DNA from: Ignavibacteriota bacterium
GTDB taxonomy: Bacteria > Bacteroidota > Ignavibacteria > UBA10030 > BY39
DNA length: 64,000 bases
NCBI GenBank assembly: GCA_003327435.1
Contig: QOQV01000008.1
Span: 62,001 to 126,000, forward strand
Direction of reading: 5' to 3'
Positions within the stretch are counted from its first letter, which is position 1. Each line of letters begins with the position of its first letter. This document shows, one piece after another, positions 1-15,324 of this stretch. The position numbers and the translations under genes are program-made. The notes under the pieces are model-generated. The model was given only the letters and a program-made list of their open reading frames with translations. It ran no database searches and had not been told where the DNA came from.

Positions 1-1634
1 ACTAAACCGCTGTCGCCAATTGCCCAAACCGAATTATGTGATATTCCGCTCGCTATATAAATATTTCGAGATGTGCCTGTTATTAATTTTTCCCAGTTTG
101 TACCGCCGTTAGTGGTTTTTAAAATTAAACCGTTTGTTCCAGCACAGTAACCGTTATTTACATCAAAGAAATCTACATAAAAGATAGTTTCAGTGGTGTT
201 GCTCAATTGTTGAGTCCAAGAATTTCCACCGTTCGTTGTACGAAGAATGAGTCCACCGTCACCAACTATCCATCCATTATTTGCATCTTTAAATTTTACA
301 CCAAAAAATATATTCGACCAACCTGTTACTCTTTTAATCCAGGAGTTACCTGAATTTGTTGTATAGAAAAATTCACCTACGTCTCCAACGACCCATCCTT
401 GAGTTCTATTAATAAAGCTTATACTTAAAAGTGTGTTAAAAGTATTAGTTGTTTGTTGGATCCAACTGTTGCCACCATTTGAGCTATGTAGAATGACTCC
501 ACCATCGCCAACAGCCCAAACATAATTAGAATCAATAAGCTCAGCACCGTAAAAAGAATCTCCAGTTATACCGTTGTTAAGATCGATCCAGGTGTTACCT
601 CCATTTGTGGTACGGGCTATTTTGCCATATTGTCCGAATACGAATCCATAAAGATGATTTGAAAAAGTCACCCAGTTAATGCTCTTATTTATTCCAGTAT
701 TGTTGTATGTCCAGTCAGATCCATTTTTATAACCTAACAAACCGTACTCACCGACTATAAAGGTTGTTGTGTTTACACGTGTAATTCCATATATCGAGGC
801 ATAAGTTGGAATTGACTCTGAAAACCAGCTTGTACCGGAATTTGTCGACCGTAAAATAGTACCGTTATGTCCTACTATTAAGAATTCAGTGCTGGATGCG
901 AATAAGATCTCGTTTAAACCTTGTGTTGTACCAGAGGGGATTTTTGTCCATGTATCACCTGAGTTTGCTGTGAAATATATAGAACCATCAGCACCGACGA
1001 CAAAGCCTTGGTTATTGTTATAAAATTTTATATTATAGCCTGCTTGTGTAGTATTGTATTGCAGGGACCAAGTGATACCACCGTCAGTAGTTTTTAATAT
1101 ATATCCATTTGAACAGGTTGCCCACCCGTTGCTTAATGAAGTAAAGAAGATGGAGTTTATTCCGGTTCCAATAGGTACACCCATCAATGGAACTTTTGTC
1201 CAATTTGCTCCACCGTTTGTGGTTTTTAAAATAGTTTTTTCATCTCCTCCTGCCCAGCCATTTATTTTATCATAGAAAAAAATTGAATTTAAACCATACT
1301 GTGGAAAACTTGTTTGGTCGATCCAAGTAGCTCCGTTGTTAGTTGTATAGAAAATTGTTCCGTTGTCGCCAGCGATCCAGGCTGTAACAGAATCTTTTAC
1401 ACAAATATCACGAAGATTATCAGTAATACCTTCATACTGAATTTCCCACGTTGTTCCTTTATCTGATGTGAACATAATGGTGCCGTAATCACCGATTGCA
1501 TAACCGTACCATTCATTGTAAAAGGAAATTTTATATAATGTATTACCCTGGGGTAAAGGATTCTGCCATATCCACTCAGCAGAAAATCCGATTGAATTAA
1601 TGAACAAAACAAAAAGTATTAATCTGTATTTCAT
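1..1634 (-). CDS. YCF48/BNR-type repeat secreted protein (3' end cut by window edge)
   Basis: The frame stays open from an ATG at 1634 to the window edge, giving about 544 residues without a stop. The start is set by AGGAG six bases upstream and by a signal peptide (MKYRLILFVLFINSIGFSA). The rest is about twelve repeats of roughly 45 residues, each ending in a form of G-D-x-G-x-I-x-x-T-T-N-G-G-x-x-W, the hallmark of YCF48/PSII-BNR beta-propeller repeats. Such proteins form propellers and in this phylum are usually secreted and often end in a T9SS sorting domain; the C-terminus here is outside the window, so that cannot be checked. It starts 9 bases after the stop of the barrel-like gene, so it is probably the last gene seen of the exopolysaccharide-type operon. 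Its function is unknown; a surface adhesin or scaffold is a guess. Confidence 0.85.
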   Translation of the reverse strand, partial: MKYRLILFVLFINSIGFSAEWIWQNPLPQGNTLYKISFYNEWYGYAIGDYGTIMFTSDKGTTWEIQYEGITDNLRDICVKDSVTAWIAGDNGTIFYTTNNGATWIDQTSFPQYGLNSIFFYDKINGWAGGDEKTILKTTNGGANWTKVPLMGVPIGTGINSIFFTSLSNGWATCSNGYILKTTDGGITWSLQYNTTQAGYNIKFYNNNQGFVVGADGSIYFTANSGDTWTKIPSGTTQGLNEILFASSTEFLIVGHNGTILRSTNSGTSWFSESIPTYASIYGITRVNTTTFIVGEYGLLGYKNGSDWTYNNTGINKSINWVTFSNHLYGFVFGQYGKIARTTNGGNTWIDLNNGITGDSFYGAELIDSNYVWAVGDGGVILHSSNGGNSWIQQTTNTFNTLLSISFINRTQGWVVGDVGEFFYTTNSGNSWIKRVTGWSNIFFGVKFKDANNGWIVGDGGLILRTTNGGNSWTQQLSNTTETIFYVDFFDVNNGYCAGTNGLILKTTNGGTNWEKLITGTSRNIYIASGISHNSVWAIGDSGL

Positions 1635-1643
1635 ATTGAACTC

Positions 1644-3038
1644 CTAATAAATTCCAATTCCAAAACCTCCAGATATACCCTGGAGTGAAAAATCATTATA
1701 ATTATCATTAGATTGATTTCTTAATAAAACACCGCTTAAATATATGTCTAAACCTAAACCATCGGTGATGTCGATATATTTTGATAGATATATTTCAACC
1801 GATGACCTGAGGTCCTTTCTGTTTGTAGAAATTTTTTCACCAACCAAATTTAACGCAGGGGCTTCAAACCTTTTTTGCTGATAAACTATATCGAGTAACA
1901 TATTTATCTTGAATGGAAGAATCTGTTTAAATCGGATCTTAGTTTCTATTCCTCGGTAGGAAAAATGGTCGTTATATATATCATCGGTAAGAATTGAAGA
2001 ATTTACATATTGTGCTAAATATCTAACCGCAGCTCTTGGATTGTACCGATACAACACCGATGCTTCGATACCTGTATTGTTCCATTGCTTCTCGAAAAAT
2101 AGACCTGTTGCAATTTGTAAAATTCCATTAGCCTGTGGTTTAGTAAGTATTTTTTTGTCAGAATATATCTTCAATTTTGCACCCGGTTTACCAACTCCAG
2201 TCTTTTTTTCTACAAAGGTTCTAACAGGTTCAAAACGGCTTGTATCGTATACTGTTTTTGTATAGAATTTATAACCTACAAATAGATCGATGCCATAGTG
2301 TATTTCTTTATTATTGTTATTACCTAATTGTAAAAAGAATTGTTCTGTTATGTTTGATAATTCCATTAGATTATTGTAATTTCTGTAGCCAAATGAATTA
2401 TATATCCTGTAATAAACATTCTCAAATAGAATTGACCTGTAACTTAATAACAAATCAACACTAAAATTGTCGAACTCTTTATAAGCTTTTTTATCGTGTC
2501 GGGAGCTTAACAATATTCCATTATCAAGAAAATTACCTGTTGAATCTTCAGCGAGCAAAATCTCATCATTGGATGGTTCCGAGTTTTCAGTTCCCAATTC
2601 AAATTTGTTTTCAGCTAAATCCTCTTCTTCTGTTAAAAGCTCATCATCTTGTTCTGTTTCTTCTTGTCCATCCTGTTGTTCATCTTCCAGTTCTGGTTCG
2701 TACTCTACTGAAGTTTTTTGGTCATTAGCTTTATCCGTTTTATTAGAAAATTTTATTTTATAGTTACCCAAAAATTTATGTTCGTAATAATTCCTCGCTT
2801 CGAAACGGTTAAATAACATTAAACCGCTAACATACTTTAGTTCAAGTTTGGATGTTTTATATTCTTTCTTAAAATTTAACTCTGTGTAAGTTTGTTTAAG
2901 CTGATCTGCCAGTTTTTGATAATTGTAGAGTGGGTTGTTGTTATACCCATAACCAACAGATGTAAATCCAGAAAATTGGGAATAGAGAATTGAACAATTT
3001 AGAAAAACTAAAGCTACTATGTGTATTATAAATTTCAT
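1644..3038 (-). CDS. Outer-membrane beta-barrel-like protein of the exopolysaccharide-type operon
   Basis: The 464-residue protein has a signal peptide (about residues 1-20, ending near LYSQ) and many alternating aromatic/polar stretches with Tyr/Phe/Asn-rich turns, as in outer-membrane barrels. A very acidic, low-complexity insert (about residues 105-165, rich in Glu, Asp and Gln) splits the N-terminal strands from the rest; it may be a periplasmic or surface loop. The ATG overlaps the GT2 stop by 4 bases, so the two are translationally coupled. From context I infer an outer-membrane exit pore or anchor for the polysaccharide, taking the place of PgaA or AlgE. I see no TPR region and recognise no named family, so the function rests on position and predicted fold only. 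Confidence 0.7.
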   Translation of the reverse strand: MKFIIHIVALVFLNCSILYSQFSGFTSVGYGYNNNPLYNYQKLADQLKQTYTELNFKKEYKTSKLELKYVSGLMLFNRFEARNYYEHKFLGNYKIKFSNKTDKANDQKTSVEYEPELEDEQQDGQEETEQDDELLTEEEDLAENKFELGTENSEPSNDEILLAEDSTGNFLDNGILLSSRHDKKAYKEFDNFSVDLLLSYRSILFENVYYRIYNSFGYRNYNNLMELSNITEQFFLQLGNNNNKEIHYGIDLFVGYKFYTKTVYDTSRFEPVRTFVEKKTGVGKPGAKLKIYSDKKILTKPQANGILQIATGLFFEKQWNNTGIEASVLYRYNPRAAVRYLAQYVNSSILTDDIYNDHFSYRGIETKIRFKQILPFKINMLLDIVYQQKRFEAPALNLVGEKISTNRKDLRSSVEIYLSKYIDITDGLGLDIYLSGVLLRNQSNDNYNDFSLQGISGGFGIGIY

Positions 3039-4312
3039 AAAGATGTTTTTGTTATTTCTGTTTCAAACCTAATGGTCTTATCCCATACTCGTTTTTCTTT
3101 TTTGATATACTCTAAATAAACAGCTCTAATCACTATATAAATCCAAAGTTGACAGTATGTAAAATACATCAAAATAATTAACAAAACTTTTTTCGAGCTA
3201 TCTTCAGAGTCGAAAGAAATTGCAAACATAATTTCGAAAATAAATAAAATGAAAGCTATTATCCATATTAATGTATATGGACCTGGAACGGATATGCTGA
3301 CAAGATTAAAAACACCAGAAAGAAATATTAAATCAGAAATCAGTATTGCAATGAAAAATAGGTAGTATAAAGAAAGAGTGTATAGTACATCGAAAGCAAG
3401 CCTTTTGTTTTTGAAGCTTGGTATCTGTTTAAAGAATTTTGCAATTACATAGTTATTGCCCCTCACCCAACGGATACGTTGGCGCACCCACACACTCCAT
3501 TTTTCAGGTTCCTGTTCATAAGTTATAGCATACGGAACAAATTTGATTTTATAACCCTCTTTATAAATTCTGATACTCAACTCTGAGTCTTCAGTTAACG
3601 CCTCCTCATCCCATCCGTTCAGGCGTTCAATCAACCATGACCAGATAACGAGATTAGTTCCCGGAAGTGTAGCAATACCATGCATTTCCCATCTGCCCGC
3701 TTGAAGCATAGATTGAAAACTTAGAGTTTCGATGTTAATAAACTTTGTTAGGATATTTCTATTTTTATTCACTGTACGGAATTTTCCAATTGCCGCTCCC
3801 AATTCTTTGTGAGTTAACAGCTGTACGACAAGATAGCGAAGGGCATTTTTATCGGGAGTGTTGTCAGCGTCGTAGATTGCGATGATCTCAGAGTCAGTTT
3901 GCTTAACCCCAATATTTAAAGCCCGCGATTTGCCTTTACCGCCTTCTCCCTTTGCTATATTGTAAAGCGTTATCCGACTATCCAGTTTAGCGTAATGATG
4001 AGTAATCTCACCTGTCCGATCTGTAGAACCATCATTTATTACAATTATCTTCAACTTATCCTTTGGATAGTTTAATTTCATCATTGCTTCTAATGTTTTG
4101 CCTATAACTTTTTCTTCATTGTGTGCGGGGATAAGTATTGAACAGGTAGGGAACTGATATTCATTACGGTCAATTTTCTCTTTTTCTTTCAAAGATTTTA
4201 CATAGTTTTTAAAACCGAATACTGTTAAACCAAATTGGTAGGCAATCATAAACCAAATTATGATTACTGAAAGAACAAAGAAAAAACTTAAAACAGTTTC
4301 AAATCCTACCAT
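3035..4312 (-). CDS. Processive family 2 glycosyltransferase (polysaccharide synthase, PgaC/cellulose-synthase-like)
   Basis: The 425-residue membrane enzyme has one N-terminal transmembrane segment (residues 8-30), a cytoplasmic GT2 domain and about three C-terminal membrane segments (roughly 308-332, 345-366, 375-400). The processive synthase motifs are all present: INDGS (Asp94), DAD at 148-150, TEDSE at 240-244 with the catalytic Asp, and QRIRW at 278-282 (the QxxRW motif). These mark beta-linked polymer synthases that extrude the chain while making it, such as PgaC, hyaluronan synthase and BcsA. No PilZ domain is fused. The start overlaps the upstream deacetylase/hydrolase gene by 14 bases. 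The polymer is unknown; partnership with a deacetylase suggests an acetylated amino sugar. Confidence 0.9.
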   Translation of the reverse strand: MVGFETVLSFFFVLSVIIIWFMIAYQFGLTVFGFKNYVKSLKEKEKIDRNEYQFPTCSILIPAHNEEKVIGKTLEAMMKLNYPKDKLKIIVINDGSTDRTGEITHHYAKLDSRITLYNIAKGEGGKGKSRALNIGVKQTDSEIIAIYDADNTPDKNALRYLVVQLLTHKELGAAIGKFRTVNKNRNILTKFINIETLSFQSMLQAGRWEMHGIATLPGTNLVIWSWLIERLNGWDEEALTEDSELSIRIYKEGYKIKFVPYAITYEQEPEKWSVWVRQRIRWVRGNNYVIAKFFKQIPSFKNKRLAFDVLYTLSLYYLFFIAILISDLIFLSGVFNLVSISVPGPYTLIWIIAFILFIFEIMFAISFDSEDSSKKVLLIILMYFTYCQLWIYIVIRAVYLEYIKKEKRVWDKTIRFETEITKTSL

Positions 4313-7300
4313 TTACTACCTCGTTATTTTTTAGAAAATATTTTTTATTAATTCTTTTAACATATATTTGCATTACAACTAATGTTGTGATTGCGAGAAT
4401 ACCAAAAATGGATATGCTGATGCTTGACCATAAACTTGTTAAATTTATTCCATAAGTAACCATACTACCACCAACAATTTTAACAGAATGTTTTCCTGCT
4501 GGAAGAAGTACAGTAAAACAATCGTTGCCTCTCATTGCATAAAAAACATATTTTTCGTTATCGATTGTAATTTCTGTAGGTTCCATATTAAGAGATATAA
4601 GTGTTCTTGTGTCTGAATCGTAACTGAATTTTACATCTCGCATGCCATATGAAACCTCGAGAATATTAGCCGTCGTAGACAATATTTTTATCTGCAATTC
4701 GTGTGTGGAATAGGTATTGATTATATCAACACCAAGTTTAACAGTATGGTTACCAGCAGGGATTAGAAAAGAACTTCCTCTTGAGGATGAAATTGGATTA
4801 CCGTCGAGTGTAACTACCTCAATTCCTTCTTTTAGTTTTAGATAAAATGAATAAGGTGAATCGAATTCATATCCATTATCGATGTGTTTATATTTCACCT
4901 CACTTGCTAAAGCGTAAGGAAGGAAAATCATATCTTGAGGATTGATACTTGATTCAGAATATATAACAACTCGTGATGCACCTAATGATGCGGACTTGAC
5001 GAGCTGAAAACTTTCTGTCCCCGTCTGTATCAAAGTAGGGAAGGGTGTGATCTCATCTTCTCGCCTGAAACTCATAATGTTCAGGTCGAGTAATAGTTTC
5101 TCTTTCCCACCTAATAGTGTTGAATATGTATTACCTATGTCTTTATATCGTAGTGGATCAGTTGACCAATGATGTTGTGGATCCTGAATGTTAAGTGAAA
5201 AATTGTATTTTTTCTGTAAATGCAATATTTTTTCTATATCAACAGCTATATGTTCTTTTAGTTCAGGGGAATTATAACTGTCCATCGCAGTTACGATAAT
5301 GTGGAAACCCGGTTTCGATTTCGCATGTTCAGAGAATTTACTCAGTAAAAGTTCATAGATTTCGTTTAACTTGTTAATACGGTATTCAATGATGGATTTT
5401 TTTACATAATGATTGTTTTGCCAATAATATTTAGAATTCGGATTAAAGATATTTTCAAGCTCGATGTTATATTTTTCCTTAACCTCCTTAATTGCCGAGG
5501 GGTGCATCGGTGTAAAATGATTTGGTTCATCGAATCCTTTGCCAGCTTCAAAATAAAGTTCTGCAAGATTAATCCCATCGAAGTCGTAAATTTCAAGAAG
5601 TTTCATAAATTCTTTCAACATCTCAGCAACACAGTTTTTATCCGTCATTGCAACTGGATACCGCCACGATGGTTTTGCATCTTCTCCTAAGTAGTTCTTT
5701 TCACGCCATTCAGGGTGTGTAGCCCAAAACATTTGACTGACTTGAGGAGGTTCTAACCATGCATAAACTAAAATTCCGTTTGCATGAGCTAATCTTATTA
5801 ATCGATTGTAATCATATGTATATTTTGGATATTGATGCCATCCAGCAACATGAACGACACGGATTCCCTGATTTACCCATTGCTTAATCAAATTTTCAAT
5901 ACTGTAAGTATGGCGGAAACCGGGGTCAAAAAATACTTCAAGGTTCTCCCTTCTGATTATTGGTGTTAGTTTAAAATATTTACGAACATATTCCAATAAG
6001 TATGGATATAAACTGTATCCTTCTTGCGAATATGGGTCAAAGATAGAACTAATAAAAATAAGTTTTCCTTTTCCAACCCTTTTTCCAATAATAATTGGTG
6101 CGTCTGTGATTTCGTCAACGCAGAATATCTCTTCAATGTCATCACATTCAAACTTGTTGATTAACTCTGTATATCTCCAGCTGATTGGTTCTTCTGGGAA
6201 ATAACGGTCTCGGATTTTTCTTACTCTAAGCTTGTTCTCAATATACTTAATTCCTAATTCCTCTGCTAAATAATTTTTTGAATCGGTGATTATGTTTCCA
6301 CCATCTTCCACAAACTTAGTTATAATATCGAAATCTGTTAAGCGTAATGAATCCACAAAACTAAAAGGAACTAACAGGAGGTTATAGTTTTTTAAGTCAA
6401 TTTTTTGCCCCACATAAATAGTATCTACATTGATATTAACACTACGAAAGACTGAAACCAAAGCTGCCTGATCATTGTATGCTGCCCCCTTAGCATAATG
6501 ATTCCATAAGACAACCGGTCTTGCTTCTTCTAACTGGTTTGGAGATGTAATGATTTTACTTATTAATTTTTGTAATTTATAATAAGTATCTTCATAAAAG
6601 TCTTTTTTTCGCTCTTTAAATTCTAACACCTCTGCTTTGTAAAATTGTCCCGGTTTTAAATCGCCTCCAATTTCGAGAGTTCCTCTTATTCTCTTCTCAG
6701 ATTCTTTTCGTTTAATTATTTCACCCGATGGATTAAAGTAAGCTTCAACCAAATATTGATCCTCAAGCGTAAGGGTGTGCTTTTGATTTCCACTTATTAT
6801 TAGTTTATCCTTAGTTTTAACCCAGTTGCTTTCATATTTCAAATCGATATATGTATAACCTAAAGCTTGAACACTATCGACTAACTCCTGCAATAAATCC
6901 AAATCAAGAAAGGGGTGGAAGAAGCAGGAGGCGAAACCATCACGAACATACAGATTTGTTTTTGCTCCTTTTAAAATATTTTGAACAGCATTTCGACTTA
7001 CTTGTTTGTTTGATTCATCAAGAGGAACATATCCAAGATTTTCAGGATAGATGGTTTGTCCAAATAGATCCTTTTGAATAATATATGGGAAGAACTGGCT
7101 GTAATCGTAATTTTCGATAGAAAGCCGCTGCTCAATTGCGGTACTGAAATATTTTGAAACTGTTTTGTAAAATAAAAGTGATGCAGTATAATGTGGGGTT
7201 TCCCAAACGAGTGGGTATAATCCATTCTTCATAAATTCCTGAATTCCAAGATCGAGCTTTTTTGAGAATGCCTCCTCAGATTCATCTTTAATTGGTGAAT

Positions 7301-8273
7301 TTGTGCTTTCGTCCCAGAACTCAAAATCTGTTGCTGATATACCCTTGTATTGGTGAGTTACACCGTGCATCACTAACGTTCCACCATTTCGGACCATATA
7401 TTTTAAAGCATCGACTAATTCTGGTTTATCCGATAAACTGACCCGAATACCTTCGGATGGATCCACATAAAAAGGATATACACTAATTAGAAATGGAATT
7501 CCTTTATCAGCTAATAAATCTGCAATATCTCTTAAATTATTAGGGTTATCCAGAGGACCTATGTCTTCAATTCTAAGTATTGCAGAGTGAGATTCTTCGT
7601 GTTCTTCGCCTAAAATGTCGTGTAACATATCGGCAAATAGAAGGTAACGATCAGTTTCAGTAGCAGATGCAAACGGAGAATCAGCAATGTAATAAAAATT
7701 TTTAGACTTGACTATATAAGGTATTTCGATGTCGGACTTTGATGAAATTGCAACAGCGAGGGTACTCACCATTCTTTTGTCACTTATGTTAATAATGTTT
7801 GCATTTGGCTCGCCTTTAGTAAATATTTTTTTTCCCGATTTCACAAAATCGAAATTAGTAACTGTATCCAATTTAAAAACATCAAATCCAAAAATTTTCT
7901 TCAAATTATAACTTTTTGAAAATTCTGCAAATCCAGTATTTATCCAAACGATTGTTTTTGTCGATTTTACAACATCAATTAAAAATTTTGGTGGAACAAT
8001 GTTATCAGCATGGAAACCGATATAAAATGTAAAATCGTAATTGTTGAGTTCGTGTGGGATATAATCGTTGACGCCTTTAATGACTGTTGAGGTATTAAAG
8101 TGTCCTAAAAGCGCAGCGAGTTGCCGACCATCCCCCATAGCCAGATTGTTCAGCTGGCTCGATCCTTCTACTACAATGAGTATTTTCTTTTGATTTTGTG
8201 TCTGAGAACTTGAGACTTCGGGAGCTCCAAAAAAAACAAAAATACATATGAGTATATGTAAATATTTTATCAT
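4299..8273 (-). CDS. Periplasmic fusion: DUF2334-type polysaccharide deacetylase, GATase-like domain and TIM-barrel glycoside-hydrolase-like domain
   Basis: The 1324-residue protein has a signal peptide (about 1-22) and a single C-terminal membrane segment (about 1283-1305). Residues 25-220 form a Rossmann/GATase-like region. Residues 225-480 look like DUF2334, a deacetylase-fold family, with the likely metal-binding set RIED (around 233-236), MHGVTH (302-307), ETPH (358-361) and FFHPF (451-455). Residues 585-770 resemble a second GATase-like fold. Residues 775-1140 resemble a TIM-barrel glycosidase, with YAWLEPP (837-843) and DFDGINLAE (897-905). PgaB likewise joins an N-terminal deacetylase to a C-terminal hydrolase, and PelA joins the same activities in another order. 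With the GT2 synthase directly downstream, I infer that it trims and deacetylates the nascent polymer in the periplasm. Domain edges are approximate. Confidence 0.8.
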   Translation of the reverse strand: MIKYLHILICIFVFFGAPEVSSSQTQNQKKILIVVEGSSQLNNLAMGDGRQLAALLGHFNTSTVIKGVNDYIPHELNNYDFTFYIGFHADNIVPPKFLIDVVKSTKTIVWINTGFAEFSKSYNLKKIFGFDVFKLDTVTNFDFVKSGKKIFTKGEPNANIINISDKRMVSTLAVAISSKSDIEIPYIVKSKNFYYIADSPFASATETDRYLLFADMLHDILGEEHEESHSAILRIEDIGPLDNPNNLRDIADLLADKGIPFLISVYPFYVDPSEGIRVSLSDKPELVDALKYMVRNGGTLVMHGVTHQYKGISATDFEFWDESTNSPIKDESEEAFSKKLDLGIQEFMKNGLYPLVWETPHYTASLLFYKTVSKYFSTAIEQRLSIENYDYSQFFPYIIQKDLFGQTIYPENLGYVPLDESNKQVSRNAVQNILKGAKTNLYVRDGFASCFFHPFLDLDLLQELVDSVQALGYTYIDLKYESNWVKTKDKLIISGNQKHTLTLEDQYLVEAYFNPSGEIIKRKESEKRIRGTLEIGGDLKPGQFYKAEVLEFKERKKDFYEDTYYKLQKLISKIITSPNQLEEARPVVLWNHYAKGAAYNDQAALVSVFRSVNINVDTIYVGQKIDLKNYNLLLVPFSFVDSLRLTDFDIITKFVEDGGNIITDSKNYLAEELGIKYIENKLRVRKIRDRYFPEEPISWRYTELINKFECDDIEEIFCVDEITDAPIIIGKRVGKGKLIFISSIFDPYSQEGYSLYPYLLEYVRKYFKLTPIIRRENLEVFFDPGFRHTYSIENLIKQWVNQGIRVVHVAGWHQYPKYTYDYNRLIRLAHANGILVYAWLEPPQVSQMFWATHPEWREKNYLGEDAKPSWRYPVAMTDKNCVAEMLKEFMKLLEIYDFDGINLAELYFEAGKGFDEPNHFTPMHPSAIKEVKEKYNIELENIFNPNSKYYWQNNHYVKKSIIEYRINKLNEIYELLLSKFSEHAKSKPGFHIIVTAMDSYNSPELKEHIAVDIEKILHLQKKYNFSLNIQDPQHHWSTDPLRYKDIGNTYSTLLGGKEKLLLDLNIMSFRREDEITPFPTLIQTGTESFQLVKSASLGASRVVIYSESSINPQDMIFLPYALASEVKYKHIDNGYEFDSPYSFYLKLKEGIEVVTLDGNPISSSRGSSFLIPAGNHTVKLGVDIINTYSTHELQIKILSTTANILEVSYGMRDVKFSYDSDTRTLISLNMEPTEITIDNEKYVFYAMRGNDCFTVLLPAGKHSVKIVGGSMVTYGINLTSLWSSISISIFGILAITTLVVMQIYVKRINKKYFLKNNEVVNGRI

Positions 8274-8365: not shown

Positions 8366-9148
8366 TTAATTCGTCTGCAGTGTTATTGTTCCAAGGTTTG
8401 TGTCTTGTTGTTTAACGACCGAAACATTGTTAATAGTTGTATCCTTATATATAGAATTCCCTGGAATAATTTTTATAGAATAAGTGCCTTCGGGTAAAGC
8501 AACTAATTTGAAGTTACCTGAAGTATCGGGCAATGTTGATACTGTGTCAGAACCTACCAGGGTTTGAACTAATGCATTAGCATCAAGTGGTAAAACTTTT
8601 CCTGATATTGTGCCAGATATTACATTTGCAACAACCCGTATTGTCGGCTGTAGTTTGTATGCATTATTTCCTTGTTTTACAATAGATTTATTTGCATCGA
8701 AATCAAGTGTGAGTTCGTATAGCTTATCCGATTCAATCCAGAAAGCGTGAGTAAGCTTCAAACCGCTTTCCATTCCGCTTGGAATTTCTAATGGATATGA
8801 AATCCCATTTACAACAACAGTACTACCAGAATCAATCAATAAACGAATTTGCGTATAATGACCTGCTGTTAGTTTTGCAGTACCTAATATAGCGCTTGCA
8901 CCATTACGAAGCTTGAGTAAATCGTAAGTTGCTGGAGTGTTATTAATAATCGTCCAGCCAGTAATAGTGTCTGTGTCAGATTTATGAACCGCAACACTCT
9001 TGACAACTATGTTTACTTCTTCGTAATCACCGGGCGAATCTACAAGGTATAACCTGAGTTCCCCCTGGCCTGATGGTGGCTCTGTTGACTTTTCGCATCC
9101 ACTAAATATTAAGAAGGAAGCGATAATAAGAATTAATAATTTGTTCAT
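8366..9148 (-). CDS. DUF4382 lipoprotein with C-terminal carboxypeptidase-regulatory-like domain
   Basis: I place the start at the ATG at 9148, preceded by AAAAGGAG seven bases upstream; an in-frame ATG at 9181 would add 11 residues ahead of the signal peptide and has no comparable site. The 260-residue product has a lipoprotein signal (LIFSGCEKS, lipidated Cys near residue 19), then a DUF4382 domain opening with GELRLYLVDSPGDYEEVNI (about 30-175), then a short Ig-like carboxypeptidase-regulatory domain (about 180-260). DUF4382 proteins are surface or periplasmic lipoproteins of unknown function. It is the last gene of the five-gene set that follows the sigma-54-like promoter at 11764-11778. 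Confidence 0.85.
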   Translation of the reverse strand: MNKLLILIIASFLIFSGCEKSTEPPSGQGELRLYLVDSPGDYEEVNIVVKSVAVHKSDTDTITGWTIINNTPATYDLLKLRNGASAILGTAKLTAGHYTQIRLLIDSGSTVVVNGISYPLEIPSGMESGLKLTHAFWIESDKLYELTLDFDANKSIVKQGNNAYKLQPTIRVVANVISGTISGKVLPLDANALVQTLVGSDTVSTLPDTSGNFKLVALPEGTYSIKIIPGNSIYKDTTINNVSVVKQQDTNLGTITLQTN

Positions 9149-9184
9149 AATATTTCTCCTTTTTTTGTTAAAATGAATCATTTA

Positions 9185-10330
9185 TTAAAATCCTAAATCA
9201 AAACTTATTGCCCAAACATTGTTTTTGTAATTGTAGAAATCATCATTCGATGCATTACGTATGTAATCATACATTAAACTTATCGTGAATCCGTTTAACA
9301 GATTGAACTCTTTTTCAAGTATTAATGATACCATGTATACATTATCTATTCTTTCGTTGGATTTGATATTATCCGACAAGTCATAAGCTGGTCTGTTTAC
9401 ATAATTTTTATTCATGAAATTAAAAGAAACTTTTCCCATCATTAACCATGGTAAAACTTGAGTTAATGTAGCTTCAAAACTCGGACCTTCGTATCCATAA
9501 TTATCATCAAATAAGTCATCATCTGAAATGATATATCCTGAAGAAAGATATCTTGTTTCCTGCTGAATATTTTTTTGATAACCTCCGGCTATGCTTAATC
9601 CTGTTTCATCAAAAATTGATTGTGCAATTCTAATGTTGCCAGCAAGCTGAATAACACTTGGATTATTATCCTTTATCGTACTTTTTCCTCTCCCCATGCC
9701 AGGATTAATTACAGTTGTTTCTGGAGGGGCATTTGTGTAGGACTTAATTCCGAGATTTGCCTCGAGTGCCAATGTGGTTCGTGAAGGGAAGAAGTTCGTC
9801 AGCTGTGCAAAGAAATAATTCTCAAGATTATTCAAGTCGGATAATTCTTTGTATGTAAGATATCTTATTCTGTAACCCAACTTGCCGAAAGTTCTCTCAG
9901 ATATTTGATGCTTTATATTCAGGTATCCTATGTACTGACTGTTATCAAAGTAAGTAAAATCTTCTCGTCCAATTCTCAGATTATAATTAGCACCTAAGTT
10001 GAGTGCGGTTTCGGATTCTTCACCGTATAATTTGGTGTAAACAAGTCCTGTGGAATGTGTATGAAAACTTCTTGCAATGACATTTCGGTAATAATTGTAA
10101 GTACCAATATAAAATACCTGAAAGTTTTTTCTTTCCCCTTCAAAATCGTAACCTGTTTGCAAAGAAAATTGTGTTAATCTATCGTAAGTGTTCAGGTAGT
10201 TATTGTTTACATTATCATCGAATGCATTATGGATACTTGTACTTAATAGGAATTGTGATTGTGTCTCCGAAATTCCTAGAATAATTGATACAGTAATTCC
10301 CATCAGATAAATTAGTTTAGATTTATCCAT
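9185..10330 (-). CDS. Outer-membrane beta-barrel-like protein
   Basis: The 381-residue protein has a signal peptide (about 1-25, ending SETQS-Q) and a body made of alternating amphipathic strands rich in Tyr, Asn, Phe and Gly. It ends in an aromatic residue after an alternating strand (AISFDLGF), as expected for an outer-membrane barrel. AGGT lies ahead of the ATG. It sits 6 bases after the small acidic-motif protein gene and 36 bases before the DUF4382 lipoprotein, so the three are probably co-transcribed. I recognise no named family. An outer-membrane channel or anchor for the neighbouring secreted proteins is an inference. Confidence 0.75.
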   Translation of the reverse strand: MDKSKLIYLMGITVSIILGISETQSQFLLSTSIHNAFDDNVNNNYLNTYDRLTQFSLQTGYDFEGERKNFQVFYIGTYNYYRNVIARSFHTHSTGLVYTKLYGEESETALNLGANYNLRIGREDFTYFDNSQYIGYLNIKHQISERTFGKLGYRIRYLTYKELSDLNNLENYFFAQLTNFFPSRTTLALEANLGIKSYTNAPPETTVINPGMGRGKSTIKDNNPSVIQLAGNIRIAQSIFDETGLSIAGGYQKNIQQETRYLSSGYIISDDDLFDDNYGYEGPSFEATLTQVLPWLMMGKVSFNFMNKNYVNRPAYDLSDNIKSNERIDNVYMVSLILEKEFNLLNGFTISLMYDYIRNASNDDFYNYKNNVWAISFDLGF

Positions 10331-10335
10331 AAATT

Positions 10336-10659
10336 TTACCTGTTACCTAATCGTTTTTTTCCACCTTGTTGGTCTTGTTTAACCCCGTGACGAGAACGTA
10401 TTCCAACGCCACCAGAGCGTCCGTCACAAATACCGTCGCCGTCTAAATCAACAAATCTATCTCTCAATCGCTTCTGTTTTCCAACACCCTGTTGTTTCTC
10501 AATTCTATCGTCGACACCGTTTGCATTCTCGTCTATAAAATCGGATTTTTTCTCAATCTCTTGTGACTTATTGTCTTTCAGGGAATCTGATTGACTTTGA
10601 GCAAACGATAGCCCACTCAACAGTACCAACATTAACATTATTTTTAACAATTGTTTCAT
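10336..10659 (-). CDS. Small secreted protein with Asp-rich calcium-binding-like motifs
   Basis: The 107-residue product has a clear signal peptide (about 1-21, ending LSFA-Q) and AGGAAATG upstream of the ATG. The mature part holds DENANGVDDRI and DLDGDGICDG, which match the D-x-[DN]-x-[DN]-G-x-x-D calcium loops of thrombospondin type 3, dockerin and EF-hand-like repeats. The C-terminal 30 residues are very basic and Gly/Arg/Lys-rich. It resembles the secreted protein encoded at 11290-11700, which suggests two related components of one surface structure. Calcium binding is inferred from the motifs only. Confidence 0.75.
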   Translation of the reverse strand: MKQLLKIMLMLVLLSGLSFAQSQSDSLKDNKSQEIEKKSDFIDENANGVDDRIEKQQGVGKQKRLRDRFVDLDGDGICDGRSGGVGIRSRHGVKQDQQGGKKRLGNR

Positions 10660-11289: not shown

Positions 11290-11700
11290 TTATTTACCTC
11301 TTCGTGTTTGCTTAACACTACCTTTGGGACCAGTACCGTCACAGTTACCTGATTTTGTTCCAGGTCCGTATCCAGTGCCATCTCTCGGACCAATTCCGCT
11401 CTTACCGGTTCCGTCACCAGGTCCGTATCCACCTTTGCCGTTCTTTGCAGATTTACCATTCATCAATTTGCGACCGGTTCCATCCTGCGGTTTTACAAAG
11501 TCGGGATCTTTTCCGTTTGGAATACCATCGCCATCTGAATCAATTGCGTTATCGTTTATGCCATCGCCATTAAGGTCTACGAAACCTTTTGTACCTTTGC
11601 CGCCCTTTGCACTCTGGGCGTTTGCATCTGTTGATGTTAATAAGAATATTACTGCTACTAAAGTCAGTAATGTTGCGAGTAATTTAATGTTGCCTTTCAT
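11290..11700 (-). CDS. Secreted Gly-rich protein with thrombospondin type 3-like calcium loops
   Basis: The 136-residue product has a signal peptide (about 1-29, ending DANA-Q). Next come two consecutive calcium-loop motifs, DLNGDGIND and DSDGDGIPNGKDPD, typical of thrombospondin type 3 repeats. The last 70 residues are a repetitive Gly/Lys/Pro/Asp-rich tail with DGTG recurring four times (DGTGRK, DGTGKS, DGTGYG, CDGTGP). AAAGGATT lies ahead of the ATG. It is the first gene after the sigma-54-like promoter and the regulator-type palindromes, so it is probably the most strongly induced product of the two-component system upstream. I recognise no named family. Confidence 0.75.
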   Translation of the reverse strand: MKGNIKLLATLLTLVAVIFLLTSTDANAQSAKGGKGTKGFVDLNGDGINDNAIDSDGDGIPNGKDPDFVKPQDGTGRKLMNGKSAKNGKGGYGPGDGTGKSGIGPRDGTGYGPGTKSGNCDGTGPKGSVKQTRRGK

Positions 11701-11923: not shown

Positions 11924-13285
11924 TTACTTCACTCCCCACTTTTTCAATTTATATCTTAAATTTCTTTCCGATATTCCTAACATCTCCGCTGCTTTTGATT
12001 GATTTCCGTTTGTTAATCGAAGTGCCTCGAATATTAATTCCTTCTCAAGTTTTTCAACCTGTGCAGGAAGGGAAGTCAACATCTCAGGTTTTTGTAAATC
12101 ACCTTCTTTTTGAAATTCTTTTACCACTTGAGGTAATTCATTTGTTGTTATTAAATTTTGACGTGATAATATTACCGCACGCTGAACAATATTCTCTAAC
12201 TCACGAATATTTCCCGGATAGTTATAACGTAAAAGCAACTCCCAAGCTTCTTTTGAGAAAGCAATGTTATCCCGTTTCTGTTCCGAAGCGAATTTTTTTA
12301 AAAAGTATTCGAGAAGTGCCGGAATATCTTCTCTGCGATTTCGAAGCGGTGGAATGTCTATTGTCACAACATTTAATCTATAATATAAATCTTCGCGAAA
12401 TGTACCTGCTTTTATCAAATCCTCAAGATTTCTGTTGGTTGCTGCAATTATTCTTACATCAACTTTTATTGTTTCGCTTCCACCAACGCGCTCAAATTGC
12501 TGTTCCTGAAGAACTCTTAATAACTTTACCTGAGTTGCTAAAGGAATATCACCAATTTCGTCAAGAAAAATTGTCCCACCATCTGCAAGTTCGAAACGAC
12601 CTCTTCTTTGTTTATCTGCTCCTGTGAATGCACCTTTCTCATGTCCAAACAATTCGCTTTCTAACAGGTTCTCGTTTAAAGCTGCACAGTTTACTGCAAT
12701 AAATGGTTTTTCTTTTCGTTGGCTGTTAAAATGAATTGCTTTTGCGATGAGTTCCTTTCCTGTTCCGCTTTCACCGCGAATTAGCACCGATGCTTTGCTT
12801 CGAGCTACCCGCGAAGCGGTGTTCAACACATTTTCCATCGCAGCCGATTGTGAAACAATTCCTGGAAATGTCAATCGTTCAATTAACTGTTCTTTGAGTA
12901 ATTTGTTCTCCGAAACCAATCTTTGTCTTTCAAAAGTGCGGTTAATCAACAGTTCAAGTTCGTCAAGGTTAATTGGTTTGGTCAGGTAGTTGTAAGCTCC
13001 TTCGCGCATAGCTTCGACGGCGGTTTCAATAGTTCCGAATGCTGTCATAATAATCACAGCAATTTCTGGATTTATCGATCGTACCAATTTTAATACTTCG
13101 ATGCCTGATATATCGGGCATTTTAAAATCTGTAATAACCAAATCTATTATGTTTTTCGAAGCAATCTCAATCGCCTGGTTGCCAGAGCTTGCTTCATAAA
13201 TTTTGTAGCCCTGCTTTTTTAAAAAACCAGAAAGAACTTTTCTCTGTGTGGCTTCGTCATCAACTATTAAAATTGTGTATTCCAT
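11924..13285 (-). CDS. Sigma-54-dependent response regulator (NtrC/AtoC/ZraR family)
   Basis: The 453-residue protein has the three classical domains. A receiver (1-120) carries Asp53 in VITDFKMPD and the acidic pair VDDE. An AAA+ sigma-54 activator domain (about 140-370) carries Walker A GESGTGKE, GAFTGA (about 215) and the switch region GTIFLDEIGD. A Fis-type helix-turn-helix closes it (NGNQSKAAEMLGISERNLRYKL). Phosphorylation by the kinase encoded 11 bases upstream should drive assembly and open sigma-54 promoters. The paired palindromes at 11840-11877, directly downstream of its own gene, are the obvious candidate sites, and the target is then the envelope operon 11700-8366. Confidence 0.95.
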   Translation of the reverse strand: MEYTILIVDDEATQRKVLSGFLKKQGYKIYEASSGNQAIEIASKNIIDLVITDFKMPDISGIEVLKLVRSINPEIAVIIMTAFGTIETAVEAMREGAYNYLTKPINLDELELLINRTFERQRLVSENKLLKEQLIERLTFPGIVSQSAAMENVLNTASRVARSKASVLIRGESGTGKELIAKAIHFNSQRKEKPFIAVNCAALNENLLESELFGHEKGAFTGADKQRRGRFELADGGTIFLDEIGDIPLATQVKLLRVLQEQQFERVGGSETIKVDVRIIAATNRNLEDLIKAGTFREDLYYRLNVVTIDIPPLRNRREDIPALLEYFLKKFASEQKRDNIAFSKEAWELLLRYNYPGNIRELENIVQRAVILSRQNLITTNELPQVVKEFQKEGDLQKPEMLTSLPAQVEKLEKELIFEALRLTNGNQSKAAEMLGISERNLRYKLKKWGVK

Positions 13286-13296
13286 ATAAAACCTTT

Positions 13297-15324
13297 TTAT
13301 TTATACGGTAACTCGATAATAAATTTTGTTCCTTTTCCCAAATGCGACTCAACAGAAATATTACCATTATGTTGAGAAATTATTTGCTGAACAATACTCA
13401 AACCAAGTCCTGTTCCGCTTTTTTTGGTGCTGAAATAAAGATTGAAAATCTTGGATAAATTTTCTTGTGGTATTCCTTCGCCTGTGTCCTCAATTGTAAA
13501 AATAGCTTTATTTTTATCTGATTTTAGAGATAATTTTATAAATCCACCTTTTTGTGTTGCATCTAAGGCATTCTGTAATATGTTTAAAAGGGCTTGCTTC
13601 ATTTTGTCATAGTCAATTTTTAGAACCATTGCATCGTGTTGTATAGTTTCAAAGTTGACTCCTTTCTCCTTAGCCTGTGATGAAAAAATTATTTCAATAT
13701 CTTCTATTAATTTTTTTGAGAATACTTCCGTTAAATTTAGTTTTGGTGGACGAGCAAAACTTAAAAATTGTTGTATAATCCTATTTACTCGCTGTATTTC
13801 AGATAACAAAGCTTCTGTGAGCAAAACATATTCTGAAACATTTGCTGCAGGCTGGAATTCCTTTTTGAATCTCTGTCCAATCATGTAAATTGAATTCAGA
13901 GGATTTTTGATTTCATGTGCAACACCTGATGCTAATTCACCCATAGCGCTTAATCTTTCCCGCTGCTTTATCTGGTTTTCCATTTTCCTTACTTCGGTAA
14001 GGTCTCTTATGACAGCTGTAAATGCATCTAATTCACCCAGTTGATTATTGATTAAAGTTGTGTTGACAGATAAAATTTTTCCATTGTATCCAAAATCGAT
14101 TTCGAATTCTTCGTTTTTAAGTGGACTGTAGTTTTTCAGGCTTTCGTATATTGTGTTTAGTTTTCCACCTAAAATCTCTTTGAGATTTTTTCCAATTGCG
14201 TCTTTTGTTTTGATTCCAAAGATTTTAGATGCTTGCTCATTGAAAATTGTGATAATACCATTTTTATCTGTTGTGATTACGGCGTCTGCCATGTTCTGTA
14301 AAATATTTCCAGTATATGTCTGAATTTTCTCATATTCTCTTGAAACAAACTGTAAATTTTGGTTTATAAAGATGATGCTAATAACAATTGCTAAGATTAC
14401 TAACAAGACAAGCGAAATGATGATTGATCTTCTTATCATTCTCTGATTCAAAGCATGAATCTCATCCATTGCAAGCCCGAGCCGTAGTAATCCAATCTTT
14501 TCACCTTCAACATTAAAAGATTTCACAACCTCAAATACTTCTTTACCATTTGTTGTGTGGATGCGTGTATGAATTGTATCGGTTTGATTTGCATTTAAAA
14601 GGAAAGTATCTCCTTCAATCGGTTCGGTTTCGATTACCGATTGGCTTGCTGCGATAATTCCTTCTTCATCTTGCAAAATTATATATTCTATACCATCATT
14701 GTTACCAATGTCCTGCAGGATTTTACCAATACCTATTTTCTTTCTGAAATCGAGTAGATACTTTGCATCGACATTTAACACAATGGCACCGGGCTTATTT
14801 TTTGTCCGCCGCACGGCAACAGTATAACGCATTCCGTTTTCATATCTTGCTTCTTTAAGTCCAATTACCAGCTCCTGTTTTTGGTCTTGTAAGATAGGTT
14901 TGATGAAATCAACCGGCGAGTTTTTAGCTTCGAGATTTTTATGCTCAGGTTCGGGTGTATGATTGCTTAAGATTTTGTTTCCATTTTTATCAAAAATGTT
15001 TATTCGGTAAATATTATTTTCTTCAGCAAATTTTATGAGGTCGGTTTGTTTTAAATGTGTGATACTGTCTAAGCGTGCAATCATTCTACCAGCTGTAAGC
15101 AACCTCTGTGCGATAAGGTCTTCGATCTCTGAGCTTGATGTGAGAGTGTTGCTGCTACTTATTGTAATTGTCTCAATTAATGAAATGGCTTGTTCAGTCA
15201 TTAAATGAAAAAGCTCAAGGCGACTTTGTGTAAGTTCAAGATAGGCAGAAACTACCATAATTAACGCGATAAAGGCGGTAATAGCAATAATATAACGTGG
15301 TTTGATGTTGAGAAATTTTTTCAT
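13297..15324 (-). CDS. Membrane sensor histidine kinase with PAS domain
   Basis: The 675-residue protein has membrane segments at about 10-28 and 299-320 enclosing a 270-residue periplasmic sensor region of likely Cache/PAS-like fold. A cytoplasmic PAS domain (about 340-445) follows, then HisKA with the phospho-acceptor His470 in GVAHEIKNPLNS. The HATPase domain has N-box NILQNALDA, DTGEGIP and GTGLGLSI. This is the layout of ZraS/AtoS-type partners of NtrC-family regulators. The regulator gene follows after 11 bases. The ligand is unknown; the targets being secreted and envelope proteins suggests an extracytoplasmic signal. Confidence 0.93.
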   Translation of the reverse strand: MKKFLNIKPRYIIAITAFIALIMVVSAYLELTQSRLELFHLMTEQAISLIETITISSSNTLTSSSEIEDLIAQRLLTAGRMIARLDSITHLKQTDLIKFAEENNIYRINIFDKNGNKILSNHTPEPEHKNLEAKNSPVDFIKPILQDQKQELVIGLKEARYENGMRYTVAVRRTKNKPGAIVLNVDAKYLLDFRKKIGIGKILQDIGNNDGIEYIILQDEEGIIAASQSVIETEPIEGDTFLLNANQTDTIHTRIHTTNGKEVFEVVKSFNVEGEKIGLLRLGLAMDEIHALNQRMIRRSIIISLVLLVILAIVISIIFINQNLQFVSREYEKIQTYTGNILQNMADAVITTDKNGIITIFNEQASKIFGIKTKDAIGKNLKEILGGKLNTIYESLKNYSPLKNEEFEIDFGYNGKILSVNTTLINNQLGELDAFTAVIRDLTEVRKMENQIKQRERLSAMGELASGVAHEIKNPLNSIYMIGQRFKKEFQPAANVSEYVLLTEALLSEIQRVNRIIQQFLSFARPPKLNLTEVFSKKLIEDIEIIFSSQAKEKGVNFETIQHDAMVLKIDYDKMKQALLNILQNALDATQKGGFIKLSLKSDKNKAIFTIEDTGEGIPQENLSKIFNLYFSTKKSGTGLGLSIVQQIISQHNGNISVESHLGKGTKFIIELPYK

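Follow-up and report, generated by a model that had tools for sequence, protein, structure and literature searches.

Do the genes at the edge of this 64,000-nucleotide stretch of DNA (the window, a piece of one contig of a 2.6-Mb genome) encode a synthase-dependent exopolysaccharide system, and if so, is it one of the systems already known? A preliminary description had proposed a four-gene operon with coupled overlaps that functionally mirrors PgaB-PgaC-PgaA. We found all four open reading frames in place (Table 1): a large protein that we call BIG, a processive GT2 synthase, an outer-membrane barrel (BARREL464), and a protein with YCF48-like repeats. By their coordinates, the ORFs of BIG and GT2 share 14 nt, and those of GT2 and BARREL464 share 4 nt. 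Upstream of BIG, in the same direction and outside the range first proposed for the operon, lie the genes for a DUF4382 protein, a second, shorter barrel (BARREL381), and a response regulator with its sensor kinase. The DUF4382 gene sits between this barrel and BIG, a place where sister genomes do not have it. The regulator pair may control expression of the operon, and genome G003 encodes an NtrC-type regulator and kinase in the same order upstream of BIG. Two small, secreted-looking proteins (10336-10659 and 11290-11700) with calcium-binding-type DxDGDGxxD repeats and Gly/Lys-rich tails are encoded in the stretch from the regulators to the barrel, and G003 has relatives in the same order.

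Table 1. Positions of the genes and of the domains of BIG in the window.
Feature	Position	Strand	Basis
BIG, 1324 aa	8273-4299	minus	ORF list, Pfam, AlphaFold, TM prediction
BIG, first GATase-like alpha/beta domain, about residues 27-205	7659-8195	minus	AlphaFold secondary structure
BIG, DUF2334 deacetylase domain, residues 231-466	6876-7583	minus	Pfam, conserved residues
BIG, second GATase-like (GH42 trimerisation-like) domain, about residues 586-767	5973-6518	minus	PF08532 trace, model
BIG, predicted glycoside-hydrolase-type barrel, about residues 778-1122	4908-5942	minus	Model, Foldseek, weak GHL6 trace
BIG, C-terminal TM anchor, residues 1278-1296	4386-4442	minus	TM prediction
Processive GT2 polysaccharide synthase, 425 aa	4312-3035	minus	ORF list, Pfam, curated models
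BARREL464, outer-membrane barrel, 464 aa	3038-1644	minus	AlphaFold model, Foldseek
YCF48-like beta-propeller gene	1634-1, running off the window edge	minus	Pfam YCF48 repeats
DUF4382 protein, hydrophobic N-terminus	8366-9181	minus	Pfam
BARREL381, shorter BARREL464 paralogue with SlipAM match	9185-10330	minus	Pfam
NtrC-type response regulator	11924-13285	minus	Possible regulator
Sensor kinase	13297-15324	minus	Possible regulator

BIG had been described as a fusion of a DUF2334-like deacetylase and a TIM-barrel hydrolase-like part, with two GATase-like regions and a C-terminal membrane anchor. The deacetylase part matches DUF2334 (PF10096) in Pfam with an E value of 1.4e-49 (168.9 bits vs a gathering score of 26), and the match recurs in 26 of 26 BIG homologues. 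For residues 25-1224 AlphaFold gives a confident multi-domain model (pLDDT 84.9, pTM 0.68), in which we read a GATase-like domain followed by the deacetylase barrel and a beta region, and then a second GATase-like domain followed by a (beta/alpha) barrel and beta domains. The two GATase-like domains share a similar order of strands and helices in the model, so that, on this reading, a GATase-like domain precedes each catalytic barrel. The second of them is also traced by a sub-threshold Pfam match to the beta-galactosidase trimerisation (GATase-like) domain at residues 609-663, and the PF08532 trace is found in all 26 members (E up to 0.1). A signal peptide is predicted from the sequence, and the C-terminal TM segment is kept in 75 of 77 homologues. 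The DUF2334 assignment, both GATase-like regions and the anchor were thus borne out, as was the fusion itself, with its hydrolase part a prediction.

That prediction comes mainly from structure. The nearest PDB neighbours of the BIG model in Foldseek are GH42, GH164, GH36 and related TIM-barrel hydrolases, with low TM-scores; because so long a query can be aligned only in part, we take these hits to support a hydrolase-type fold and not a family assignment. No named GH family reached threshold for this half, either in Pfam searches of BIG and its 26 homologues or in a profile search of the PDB, and there was a weak trace of GHL6. Of the further families suggested for comparison, GH153 (GHL13) was not found, and DUF2194 appeared in 2 of 26 members at an E value of 0.018. 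Whole BIG gave nothing useful against PDB sequences; profiles of its halves gave weak traces, to a CE4 peptidoglycan deacetylase for the N-terminal half (E 0.04) and to an alpha-galactosidase for the C-terminal half (E 0.12). Among the residues that never vary across 26 homologues of 46-83% identity are E236-D237, H303-x3-H307, R444 and H453 of the deacetylase domain, together with four residues of the second barrel, D899, E905, Y907 and D1063. CE4 enzymes usually begin the acidic pair of the deacetylase motif with Asp; BIG has Glu there. In the literature searched, we found no paper that ties DUF2334 to exopolysaccharide.

The second gene agrees with its description as a processive GT2 between the large protein and the barrel: Pfam recognizes GT2 domains, the motifs NDGST, DAD, TED and RQRIRW (i.e. 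QxxRW) can be read from the sequence, and four hydrophobic stretches lie near the ends. BARREL464 is modelled by AlphaFold as a barrel of ~16 strands (pLDDT 70.7), for which Pfam returns no match and in which neither Pfam nor the model reveals TPRs, consistent with the barrel-like pore lacking TPRs that had been proposed. Its Foldseek matches are OprD- and OmpG-type porins, with the PgaA barrel 4y25 at rank 19. The propeller gene expected after the barrel encodes YCF48 repeats, and its ORF is complete at 920 aa, with its end outside the window. This end (L031:16872-16950) reads SLSQNYPNPFNPMTIINCR, which is how a typical T9SS-type C-terminal tail begins, and a stop follows; a search for Por_Secre_tail gave no match in the protein, and its tail looks truncated from the sequence.

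We asked if these genes occur together elsewhere. Half of the genomes in the window's order (49/98) encode BIG, as do 14 of 395 genomes sampled from the phylum. It was found on 128 genome contigs, among them contigs from Ignavibacteria, Bacteroidales, Kapaibacterium, Kryptoniota, Spirochaetes and Acidobacteria MAGs, and the system recurs in many uncultured Bacteroidota and Ignavibacteria. There are 88 non-redundant BIG loci, 78 of which have room downstream for GT2, and a GT2 gene directly follows BIG in all 78 (73 by ORF, 5 by tblastn). At the latter five, the apparent lack of GT2 was an artefact of gene calling. GT2 orthologues are present in 46 of the 98 genomes of the order, and all 46 encode BIG; the three BIG-positive genomes without a GT2 match have cut or fragmented BIG genes. 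Full-length relatives of BARREL464 occur in 21 genomes of the order, every one of them BIG-positive (Fisher p 6e-8, a value that ignores kinship), while genomes with only weaker, BARREL381-like matches do not track BIG (6/20). No recognizable barrel adjoins BIG-GT2 in most loci, and the full order BIG-GT2-barrel-YCF48 is found in 8. The expectation that the four genes co-occur therefore holds for BIG and GT2, with the barrel and YCF48 as frequent but not universal neighbours. Because intact homologues are found in about 90 loci, the cluster is not due to chance. A 99% complete genome of the window's own genus, G001, has no BIG, GT2 or barrel match, which indicates an accessory system even at genus level.

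Relatives of parts of BIG also exist in other arrangements. Free-standing proteins of ~730 aa that correspond to its C-terminal half (residues about 570-1270; 26-30% identity), and that lack the deacetylase, are encoded at L064-L069, L096, L097 and L127, with no Pfam match. In some Bacteroidales, such a relative adjoins the BIG-GT2 pair on the opposite strand. At L145, L146 and L149, a divergent BIG of ~1670 aa carries one more hydrolase domain, of GHL6 type, on the N-terminal side of DUF2334 and is followed by GT2.

What sugar might such a system use? The third gene most often found beside BIG-GT2, more frequent than the barrel or YCF48, is wecB. In 34 of 80 loci it is the gene immediately upstream of BIG, with the same orientation and usually no more than 60 nt away, and it encodes a non-hydrolysing UDP-GlcNAc 2-epimerase (TIGR00236, 487-500 bits vs 210 for the two tested). 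The product of WecB is UDP-ManNAc, which would be the likely precursor where WecB adjoins BIG. In the window genome, WecB is unlinked to BIG: there is only one strong match, which shares 54% identity with a BIG-adjacent WecB and lies in another glycan cluster, and we rejected it as a dedicated enzyme. Among 17 further BIG-positive genomes checked, WecB was missing from G025 and from the incomplete G041. The window and its sister branch from among WecB-bearing loci when BIG sequences are placed in a tree, which makes loss the simpler reading, and the window lineage thus appears to have lost a BIG-linked WecB. We would guess that UDP-ManNAc is supplied in the window genome by the WecB encoded elsewhere; that the polymer contains ManNAc is a reasonable but unproven guess.

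Altogether, we consider it probable, with good confidence, that these genes form a synthase-dependent exopolysaccharide system in which GT2 polymerises, BIG deacetylates and trims, and the barrel exports. The analysis shows what the genes are, how their products are built, which residues are conserved, and that the genes are syntenic and co-occur; the chemistry and export we infer from the protein families. GT2 would polymerise a nucleotide-activated N-acetylhexosamine and extrude the chain through the inner membrane, where BIG, held beside the synthase by its C-terminal TM segment, would meet it as it emerges. There the DUF2334 domain would partly de-N-acetylate the chain and the hydrolase-type barrel would trim or cleave it, while the two GATase-like domains would probably bind or guide it. 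BARREL464 would then pass the modified polymer through the outer membrane. More tentatively, and with somewhat less than even confidence, we suggest that this is an undescribed class of synthase-dependent machine, making a partly de-acetylated, cationic ManNAc-type polymer with an inner-membrane-tethered, fused deacetylase-hydrolase, and that this class, common in Ignavibacteria and Bacteroidales, also extends to Kapaibacterium, Kryptoniota, Spirochaetes and Acidobacteria MAGs. If so, a protein seated in the inner membrane beside the synthase could carry out both de-acetylation and cleavage. With the conserved BIG-GT2 core as a sequence handle, exopolysaccharide machines of a separate class could be found and tested in uncultured groups; the prediction is a cationic polymer, possibly of ManNAc, and the dedicated hydrolase part of BIG could reveal the identity of that polymer.

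Alternatively, the locus could encode a divergent PNAG system that makes poly-beta-1,6-GlcNAc from UDP-GlcNAc, with BIG in the role of PgaB, the barrel in that of PgaA, and WecB serving some other surface glycan. The likeness to E. coli PgaABCD is real at the level of plan, as had been noted: both have a processive GT2, a periplasmic protein in which a deacetylase and a hydrolase are fused in the same order, and an outer-membrane barrel. PgaC_IcaA (TIGR03937) is the nearest curated model to GT2, which is 24% identical to E. coli PgaC over 328 residues, but the model scores only 157 bits against a cut-off of 422.3. The other components differ further. Profile comparison detected no similarity between BIG and E. 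coli PgaB, which carries Polysacc_deac_1 and GHL13 (GH153) where BIG matches neither, and BIG has a C-terminal TM anchor and two GATase-like domains that are foreign to Pga. Although the PgaA barrel is among the fold matches of BARREL464, the fold is all that the two have in common: E. coli PgaA carries TPRs and PgaA_barrel, neither of which is found in BARREL464, and profile comparison of the two detected no similarity. The ORF list, which covers neighbours of at least 100 aa, contains no recognizable PgaD gene. The occasional absence of WecB from BIG-positive genomes would suit a PNAG system, whereas its position immediately upstream of BIG in so many loci would not, and we regard this alternative as rather unlikely.

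A polymer of another amino sugar, e.g. GalNAc as in Pel and fungal GAG, is suggested by the N-terminal half of BIG. Judging from the model, the nearest domain order to this half is that of Agd3 of Aspergillus, a deacetylase of a GalNAc polymer in which a GATase1-like CBM87 precedes a CE18 deacetylase, and whose bacterial homologues lie in exopolysaccharide clusters (PMC7229062). In both proteins a GATase1-like domain stands directly before a metal-type deacetylase barrel, and the motif order of acidic pair, HxxxH, Arg and His agrees. Agd3 has no counterpart to the second GATase-like domain, the hydrolase-type barrel or the TM anchor of BIG, and a profile search of solved structures detected no sequence link between the two, the weak CE4 trace being all that it returned. 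Moreover, WecB would supply UDP-ManNAc and not UDP-GalNAc, and no GT4 PelF-type synthase adjoins BIG. We therefore think a GalNAc-type product improbable. That BIG is a catabolic enzyme which degrades foreign polysaccharide and is paired with GT2 by chance would fit its mostly catabolic Foldseek neighbours and the existence of free-standing relatives of its C-terminal half, but the strict pairing with GT2 in every locus with room for it and the conserved inner-membrane anchor make this very hard to credit.

Returning to the reading of the locus as a synthase-dependent exopolysaccharide system, we compared it with the remaining systems that resemble it. PelA of Pseudomonas combines hydrolase, alpha/beta and deacetylase domains in one periplasmic protein (PMC12022489), and BIG likewise joins a hydrolase and a deacetylase, but in the opposite order and from families other than the GH166 and CE21 of PelA; the Pel synthase complex is of GT4 type (PelF), whereas the window synthase is a GT2. 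The NGR system of E. coli (NfrA-NfrB-WecB), for which a ManNAc polymer has been proposed (PMC8669472), shares with our loci a GT2, an outer-membrane protein and WecB. However, no deacetylase fusion such as BIG is described for it, and Pfam finds MshEN in E. coli NfrB and TPRs with NfrA_C in NfrA, none of which is matched by the window proteins. GT2 shows marginal similarity to NfrB (E 0.002), and profile comparison of BARREL464 with E. coli NfrA detected none. Listeria Pss is known to yield a ManNAc polymer (PMC6307706), and such a polymer has been predicted for a C. difficile cluster that combines WecB with a deacetylase and GH113 (PMC7710045). Both resemble our system in pairing a GT2 with a deacetylase (PMC4125290, PMC6307706, PMC7710045); these are Gram-positive systems with a BcsB-type partner, whereas the window has no BcsB match. 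Listeria PssB is named in the literature only as a deacetylase; it may be a DUF2334 protein, which we do not claim here. Because the plan is Pga-like but the sequence tests against PgaC, PgaB and PgaA failed, we call this system a variant of the synthase-dependent exopolysaccharide systems that, by its sequences, is distinct from Pga, Pel and NGR.
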